This document shows positions 1 to 1,252 of a stretch of 7,137 nucleotides of DNA, one piece after another (the first letter of the stretch is position 1; each line of letters opens with the position of its first letter). The notes beneath the pieces are model-generated. The model was not told where the DNA came from. It saw only the letters and a program-made list of their open reading frames with translations, and ran no database searches. The position numbers and the translations under genes are program-made. This DNA comes from Bacilli bacterium (GTDB lineage: Bacteria > Bacillota_I > Bacilli_A > RF39 > UBA660): positions 1 to 7,137 of the forward strand of contig CAAHEM010000070.1 in assembly GCA_900772435.1 (NCBI GenBank), read 5' to 3'.

Positions 1-100
1 ACATATTTATTACATTAGGAAGTGCTATTATTACTAAGATTGCTAAGATTGCAATTACTGCTAGTAACTCTACTAATGTAAAACCCTTCTTATTTTTCAT
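1..100 (-). CDS. Type IV pilin-like prepilin, N-terminus only (cut by left window edge)
   Basis: The first 33 codons are visible from the ATG at 100-98. They read MKNKKGFTLVELLAV followed by an unbroken hydrophobic stretch to about residue 28 and then LPNVINM. This is the class III (type IV pilin/pseudopilin) signal: a short basic leader, a G^F site cut by prepilin peptidase, Glu at position 5 of the mature protein (+5) and a hydrophobic assembly helix. The family is exported to the membrane, cleaved and N-methylated, then assembled into a pilus or into a competence/secretion pseudopilus. The ribosome binding site AGGTGAT lies at 110-104, three bases before the start. The globular C-terminal part that would tell a major pilin from a minor pilin or a ComG-type protein is outside the window, so no gene symbol is given. 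The gene appears to have its own promoter with an unusual G9 spacer. Confidence 0.9.
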   Translation of the reverse strand, partial: MKNKKGFTLVELLAVIAILAILVIIALPNVINM

Positions 101-115
101 ATCATCACCTATTCT

Positions 116-143
116 ATTATAATATCTACCCCCCCCCGGTCAA
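116..143 (-). promoter_or_regulatory. Promoter of the pilin-like gene with a poly-G spacer
   Basis: On the minus strand a -35 TTGACC (143-138) is followed by a 16-nt spacer (137-122) and a perfect -10 TATAAT (121-116). The spacer begins with nine consecutive G (137-129). A start about 5 to 7 nt after the -10 would give a leader of only about 9 to 10 nt, just enough to hold the AGGTGAT ribosome binding site. The boxes are seen directly. Promoter activity and length variation of the G tract are inferred. Confidence 0.7.
129..137 (-). repeat. G9 homopolymer (C9 on the plus strand)
   Basis: Nine identical G/C bases stand in an otherwise very AT-rich intergenic region. The run is directly adjacent to the -35 box of the pilin promoter and lies wholly inside its spacer. 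Mononucleotide G runs of this length are typical slipped-strand mutation sites. An assembly or sequencing error in the run length cannot be excluded. Confidence 0.85.
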
Positions 144-210: not shown

Positions 211-241
211 AAAAAAGATTGAATATTAAATATTCAATCTT
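211..241 (-). terminator. Rho-independent terminator of recA
   Basis: Immediately after the recA TAG stop the minus strand reads AAGATTGAATATT, a central T, then the exact reverse complement (241-215). This gives a practical stem of about 11 bp with a loop of about 5 nt. The 3' arm ends in a run of six T (216-211). The stem is AT-rich but perfectly paired, and it separates recA from the pilin-like gene. Confidence 0.85.
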
Positions 242-1252
242 CTATTTTTCATCTTTTGATTCGTTATTACTAAATAAATGTGTTCTAACTTTTTCTTCAA
301 TTTCTTTATAAAGAGCGGGATTATTTTTTAAGACTAACTTAGCATTTTCTTTTCCTTGACCAATCTTTTCACCTTTATAACTATACCAAGCACCACTCTT
401 ATCTAAAATTCCTAAGTTAGATGCAATATCTATAATTTCGCCAGTCTTAGAAATACCTTCACCATACATAATCTCTACTTCAGCAGTTTTAAATGGAGGA
501 GCAACCTTATTTTTTACAACTTTGATAACAGTTTTATTTCCAAGTACATCACTACCTACTTTAATTTGTTCAGCACGTCTAACATCTAATCTAACAGTTG
601 AATAAAACTTTAATGCTCTTCCTCCTGGTGTAGTTTCAGGATTACCAAACATTACTCCAACTTTTTCTCTTAATTGATTTATAAATATACAAATAGTATT
701 TGTTTTATTTACAATGCCACCAAGTTTTCTTAAAGCTTGTGACATAAGTCTTGCTTGAAGACCAACATGTGAGTCACCCATTTCACCCTCAATTTCAGCT
801 TGAGGAACTAATGCAGCAACTGAGTCTATAACTATAATACTCATAGCTTCACTTCTAACTAAAGCTTCAACTATCTCAAGAGCTTGTTCTCCAGTATCAG
901 GTTGACTTAATAAAAGTTCATCTGTATCTACTCCTAACTTCTTAGCATAAACTGGATCTAATGCATGCTCTGCATCTATAAAAGCAGCTCTACCTCCAGT
1001 CTTTTGAACTTCAGCAATTGCATGTAATGCGATAGTAGTTTTACCACTTGATTCAGGACCAAATATTTCAATAATTCTTCCCTTTGGATAACCACCTACA
1101 CCTAATGCTTGATCTAATGCTAAAGAACCACTTGATACAACATCTATATTTCTAACACCTTTTTCTCCTAATTTCATTATAGCGCCTTTACCGAATTGTT
1201 TTTCGATATCAGCTAATACTTGATCTAACGTTTTGTCTTTCTCTTTTTTCAT
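242..1252 (-). CDS. recA: Recombinase RecA
   Basis: RecA is the ATP-dependent strand-exchange protein that coats single-stranded DNA, pairs homologous duplexes and stimulates LexA self-cleavage in the SOS response. The 336-residue product is full length (352 in E. coli, slightly less in many Bacillota). It shows Walker A GPESSGKT at residues 65-72, catalytic Glu95 in [10 protein letters not shown], Walker B ending in Asp143 ([10 protein letters not shown]), and the DNA-binding loop 2 region at about 192-212 with [14 protein letters not shown]. The short C-terminal tail is polar and rich in charged residues (SNNESKDEK). The ATG start has a strong AAAGGAG (1266-1260) with 7-nt spacing. The gene is a single transcription unit with its own promoter and terminator. 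It follows pgsA as in Bacillus, but without an intervening cinA. The protein holds the only tryptophan found in the window (GAWYSY). Confidence 0.99.

Follow-up and report, generated by a model that had tools for sequence, protein, structure and literature searches.

The prepilin-like gene that opens the window (the whole 7,137-nucleotide stretch of DNA analysed here) is, with a probability of roughly 80% by our estimate from comparative sequence evidence, preceded by a transcriptional contingency locus, in which slippage within a tract of nine guanines would tune the activity of the pilin promoter. In the mechanism that we propose, the pilin would be transcribed from a sigma-A-type promoter with G9 in the spacer between its -35 and -10 boxes, and slipped-strand mispairing in replication would add or remove single Gs. 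The spacer would then shift around a 17-nt optimum (16 nt with G9, 17 nt with G10 and 18 nt with G11) and pilin expression would change reversibly in single cells. The window promoter would moreover be one of many lineage-wide poly-G spacer promoters located before genes for pilins, lipoprotein-like and other exported proteins. An earlier note on this DNA had already read it as a phase-variable promoter, and the comparison with relatives supports that reading by revealing a recurrent, strand-specific poly-G spacer before exported-protein genes; switching itself, with slippage within the population and an effect of tract length on transcription, is what we infer.

Anatomy of the window promoter

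The letters on which the earlier note relied (TTGACC, a 16-nt spacer opening with G9, TATAAT, AGGTGAT and the ATG of a prepilin) are found exactly, on the minus strand between positions 143 and 98 (Table 1). The downstream open reading frame, MKNKKGFTLVELLAVIAILAILVIIALPNVINM, is truncated by the window end at residue 33.

Table 1. Features of the pilin promoter and of its surroundings in the window.
Feature	Position	Strand	Basis
Type IV prepilin-like gene, 5' part, with N-methylation motif	1..100	minus	Pfam N_methyl (PF07963), E 1.2e-10
Prepilin start codon ATG	100-98	minus	window sequence
AGGTGAT, resembling a Shine-Dalgarno sequence; leader very short	110-104	minus	layout repeated in several pilins of the genus
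-10 hexamer TATAAT	121-116	minus	window sequence, relatives' alignment
Remainder of spacer, TAGATAT, non-repetitive	128-122	minus	TAAGTAT in L203 and L294
G9 tract that opens the 16-nt spacer	137-129	minus	corresponding bases are G10 in L203, G5AG5 in L294
-35 hexamer TTGACC	143-138	minus	identical in L203 and L294
Element AAAAGTTATTAACAAAAATA, 5' of -35	144-163	minus	resembles AAAAGTTATCCACAAAAAT in L203
Hairpin with trailing U-run, separating recA from pilin gene	211..242	minus	-14 kcal/mol, z -3.76
recA, upstream neighbour, same strand as pilin	242..1252	minus	window annotation

The tract had been described as out of character for this DNA, and the base composition bears this out: the longest other run of C or G in the 7.1-kb window is of four bases, and a first-order model predicts by chance, over the same length, some 5e-4 runs of C9 and 2e-5 of G9. 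The promoter itself scores 11 of 12 letters against the sigma-70 consensus, a match that is unexceptional when taken alone, with 52 promoter-like sites in the window and a mean of 51.4 in shuffled sequences. Bare consensus matching was dropped as evidence because shuffled windows yield equal numbers of sites, and the case therefore rests on the tract and its conservation. The leader of about 10 nt that had been predicted is correct provided that transcription starts some 7 nt past the -10 box, the usual distance and not one measured here, and several further pilins of the genus likewise have a short leader and a layout resembling ATAGGTGAT...ATG.

The brevity of this leader, together with promoter-like matches that are no commoner than in shuffles, would suit an explanation in which the boxes are mere decoration and the true promoter lies elsewhere, for instance through read-through from recA. 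However, a strong hairpin with its U-run parts recA from the pilin gene, and nine pilin promoters chosen from elsewhere on the chromosome of a related genome, G291, share the -10 box and the ATAGGTGA leader with the window, so that we regard a promoter elsewhere as highly improbable. The hairpin and U-run are probably the recA terminator and, therefore, the pilin gene probably depends on a promoter of its own.

Just upstream of the -35 box, a TTATCCACA-like element resembling a DnaA box was observed in the window and at three G291 loci (L203, L293 and L294), and similar letters lie near some poly-G promoters of G096 and G128. A role for this element was considered and none is claimed, as its letters differ among copies. 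The window also carries an RNase P class B RNA (RF00011, 260 bits) at 2599-2935 on the minus strand, between a DivIVA-family gene and a helix-turn-helix/transmembrane gene. When the recA end of the window was used to search plasmids, only a distant recA match was returned.

Pilin promoters in the nearest relatives

By recA, the closest genomes to the window in a sample of 386 from the family are G357, G002, G291 and G198, which show 83-86% DNA identity and belong to a single genus. Judging from these recA sequences, the window probably belongs to the same genus and G291 is probably its congener. The 386 genomes include none of the same species for a direct comparison of the tract, the best recA DNA identity being 86%, and the recA-pilin pair was not found in synteny in L001 or L055, the two nearest relatives by recA identified at first.

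In G291, locus L203 presents the same pilin promoter with G10 and a 17-nt spacer, located behind rbfA (a gene name that reflects our reading of the open reading frame), and locus L294 harbors a second copy with the tract GGGGGAGGGGG (G5AG5) and an 18-nt spacer. The spacers of the tract-bearing pilin promoters in the window, L203 and L294 are hence 16, 17 and 18 nt long. The earlier note had reckoned that G10 would yield the optimal 17-nt spacer, which is precisely the combination seen in L203 of this probable congener. Given that the genes in front differ (recA in the window and rbfA in L203), these two copies may be paralogous.

Seven of the 14 other G291 pilin loci (L281, L283, L284, L286, L287, L288 and L293) were picked by eye for alignment, the remaining seven being left unaligned. 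In all seven, TTGATA and TATAAT are separated by exactly 17 nt of ordinary sequence without a G tract; TATAAT is followed by an identical TAATAATAGGTGA in six of them and by the same sequence with one base changed in L286, and four of the seven share an upstream element, AAAGTT...ACAAAAAT. On this alignment, the poly-G spacer is best read as a replacement for a fixed 17-nt spacer within one family of pilin promoters. The seven aligned genes, L294 and L203 are dispersed paralogs with similar promoters and N-termini; several G291 contigs end inside or close to pilin genes, which suggests that the G291 pilins form a repeat family that could also recombine. L286 has no ATG at the usual place.

Pilin motifs are present in all 18 genomes of the genus, with 5 to 44 hits each and none in a reversed control. 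The pilus assembly ATPase (PF00437, T2SSE family) was likewise detected in 18 of 18, and also in 14 of 14 controls, which makes it unspecific. Runs of at least eight Gs occur in seven of the 18 genomes and amount to 16 tracts, only two of which precede pilins, while G001 and G002, both close to the window by recA, contain no run of G9 or longer. From these genome sequences, most pilins of the genus are evidently not under poly-G control.

Poly-G tracts and promoter boxes across the family

Runs of at least nine Gs were identified in 79 of 145 and in 210 of 386 family genomes (overlapping samples), with a maximum of 76 such tracts in one genome. In order to assess their association with promoters, 116 tracts chosen without regard to promoter or pilin context, 48 of them supplied by G029 and G140, were searched for -35 and -10 hexamers matching at least 10 of 12 letters at any distance. 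Boxes in the right order flank 65 of the 116 tracts when read on the G strand and none when read on the C strand. Their distance is 16-20 in 44 of these 65 and either 10-12 or 21-27 in the other 21, and 51 tracts have no qualifying promoter. When a single tract per genome is taken, in a set that partly overlaps the 116 loci, the counts are 18 of 30 in sense (15 at a distance of 16-20, and including among the 18 the artefactual-looking L370) and 0 of 30 in antisense. In addition, a phylum-wide set of 392 genomes contains 38 sites, spread over 19 genomes, at which G8 is followed by TATAMT, versus one site for the reversed pattern, and reading by eye the 30 loci listed for these sites locates TTGAC upstream in 23, some of the others looking like coding sequence. 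In a TTGAC-based count of 51 tracts, which includes the TATAMT-selected loci, the spacer is 18-20 rather than 17 in 30; on the 17-nt rule, such spacers would be weak states.

A strand-specific link of 65 to 0 to promoter boxes cannot arise from read artefacts, and it bears directly on whether the tracts might be artefacts of two-colour poly-G reads or of homopolymer error during sequencing or assembly. The relatives are metagenome assemblies, as the window probably is, many tracts lie near contig ends, and the G22 runs of L370 and L381, located near contig ends next to poly-A stretches, are probably such artefacts. Yet the same architecture appears in independent assemblies with unique sequence flanking both sides, which renders an artefactual origin of the tracts extremely unlikely. 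The earlier caveat on misassembly stands in that the exact length is uncertain by one base in either direction.

The same counts weigh against the tract acting mainly as a regulator binding site or an unusual DNA structure instead of through a change in spacing. Such a role would be in line with the lack of a canonical -35 at some tracts, namely the G029 cassette (TGCAACT-G9-TGCAATACAAT) and the pilins of G100 and G009, and with the upstream element common to several pilin promoters. Nevertheless, the boxes stand 16-20 apart, in a single orientation, at 44 of the full 116 tracts and at 15 of the 30 one-per-genome tracts, and an intramolecular quadruplex needs separate G runs where the window offers a single run of nine. 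We therefore consider this alternative very unlikely.

The nucleotide just before the run hardly varies within several of the listed genomes, a pattern that suggests a repeated cassette. One promoter motif has 31 matching sites in G140, and in all 30 readable copies the tract runs directly into TATAAT (G8 in one, G9 in four and G10 in 25). A different cassette, TGCAACT-G9 followed by TGCAATACAAT or TGCGATACATT, was observed in G029 (L111-L130) before many exported-looking genes, and no canonical -35 was recognised in it.

Poly-G runs were also encountered in other settings. At L204, L205, L206, L209 and L210, G8 runs lie a few bases before apparent start codons (position 1502 in each case), where they seem to serve as, or to extend, the Shine-Dalgarno sequence as a possible translational counterpart. 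Runs within apparent reading frames, one of them near the N-terminus, were noted at L007 (10809), L298 (1185), L309 (1499) and L326 (1498), and their placement would fit phase variation by frameshifting within this wider group of genomes. Viral contigs returned 13 hits, among which L243 alone was judged to resemble the lineage, by GC content and promoter; they gave no insight into length variation.

Genes downstream of the tracts

Among 93 genes found behind tracts without selection for promoters, 76 look exported, compared to 165 of 535 open reading frames in recA neighbourhoods (Fisher P 3.5e-20) and to 42 of 176 other open reading frames at the same loci (P 2.2e-20), figures to be read with the proviso that copies within a genome are not independent. 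Genes were scored as exported-looking by an N-terminal pilin motif, a lipobox-like motif or a hydrophobic N-terminus, the last by a crude hydrophobicity rule. A Pfam scan of 20 downstream proteins yielded four N_methyl matches, one of them accompanied by a bacterial surface Ig-like domain, one protein with leucine-rich repeats, two matches below the cut-off and 13 proteins without any match.

Ten pilin-like genes in eight species, including the window, lie behind poly-G, nine of them recognised by motif and L369 by eye. Clear boxes occur on both sides of the tract in five (the window, L166, L203, L207 and L369). Among the other five, the -35 box of L233 overlaps the tract, and L170, L227, L228 and L229, the last three from G100, are devoid of a clear -35.

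Divergence in tract length

Tract pairs with no more than one difference in 48 flanking bases have unequal lengths in nine of 14 cases, a comparison that involves non-independent pairs, lengths taken from assemblies and tracts collected mostly as G9 or longer. This divergence among near-identical copies is at most suggestive of tracts that change faster than their flanks. Loss of mismatch repair was considered as a cause of the tracts and ruled out, as MutS domain I scores above the cut-off in 137 of the 145 family genomes; repair loss therefore provides no explanation, and switching may be slow.

The presence of mismatch repair fits as well with a G tract that constitutes a fixed spacer, in which DNA shape sets promoter strength and the length differences between species reflect ordinary evolution without switching. 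That the genomes compared represent one per species, and that a single length dominates a genome, as G10 does in G140, point in the same direction. The inequality of near-identical copies argues against it even with the non-independence of the pairs, as do the seven sister pilins that work with non-G spacers of 17 nt and the strong downstream enrichment in exported genes, a class typical of contingency loci. A fixed spacer is, on balance, unlikely, and a contingency locus remains our preferred reading of the window.

Beyond this single promoter, it seems reasonable to postulate, as somewhat better than an even bet, that the lineage uses poly-G spacer promoters as its main system of surface variation. 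One G8-G11 cassette would have been copied, in some species, before dozens of exported-protein genes, cells would draw random combinations of pilins and other surface proteins, and promoters with fixed 17-nt spacers or interrupted tracts would be locked relatives.

Comparison with known systems

Most known cases of surface variation driven by slippage concern Gram-negative pathogens, spirochaetes and mycoplasmas; here it appears to be a common feature of a family of uncultured Bacilli with small genomes (assemblies of 0.4-1.9 Mb). Many genomes of the family come from animal guts according to their record titles and the window bacterium is probably a gut inhabitant as well; surface switching could help these Bacilli to live with immunity and phages. 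Since accurate metagenome reads allow the tracts to be scored, switching in populations is testable without culture.

In Mycoplasma hyorhinis, the surface lipoproteins of the vlp type are encoded by a gene family whose promoters have a poly-A spacer between -35 and -10. The repetition of a homopolymer spacer before a surface gene family is shared with the system reported here, but the vlp tract is of A, the lineage is another and no pilins are involved. The mechanism is already known. In the literature searched, however, we found no description of it for this lineage or for a pilin target, nor of one cassette copied in front of dozens of genes. The search, conducted largely outside subscription papers and preprints, did not turn up poly-G promoters in these Bacilli, in agreement with the earlier remark that no case was known for pilins of such Bacillota.

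A close precedent, put forward in the earlier note, is porA of Neisseria meningitidis, and the available portion of PMC7864442 confirms that its promoter has a poly-G spacer between the boxes, with an optimum quoted as 17 nt. It describes likewise, for tp0126 of Treponema pallidum, a poly-G between -35 and -10 and transcription that is best at a total distance of 17. The window resembles porA in its poly-G between the boxes of a gene for a surface structure and in spacings that surround the same optimum, with 16, 17 and 18 nt in the tract-bearing promoters and 17 in seven non-G sisters; many tracts in the family have 18-20. It differs in its host, as porA belongs to a Gram-negative pathogen and the present promoter to uncultured Bacilli, in its target, a type IV pilin, and in the multi-copied cassette of some relatives. 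Within the Bacillota, the length of an intergenic homopolymer alters the transcript level of the surface protein gene Spy1336/R28 in Streptococcus pyogenes (PMC7098570). This case shares with ours the phylum and a homopolymer tract upstream of a surface protein gene, although the tract is of T and lies in a divergent intergenic region, with no poly-G spacer described in the portion of that source available to us.

Treponema pallidum offers a close parallel for poly-G promoters at several surface genes, since tprE/G/J have them in addition to tp0126, and tprL tracts of 7-11 vary within isolates (PMC7864442, in the portion available). In that species both variation in length and effects on reporters have been reported, while the present case is built on sequence comparison. 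Set against tp0126 and tprE/G/J, the family sampled here presents up to 76 tracts of at least G9 per genome.
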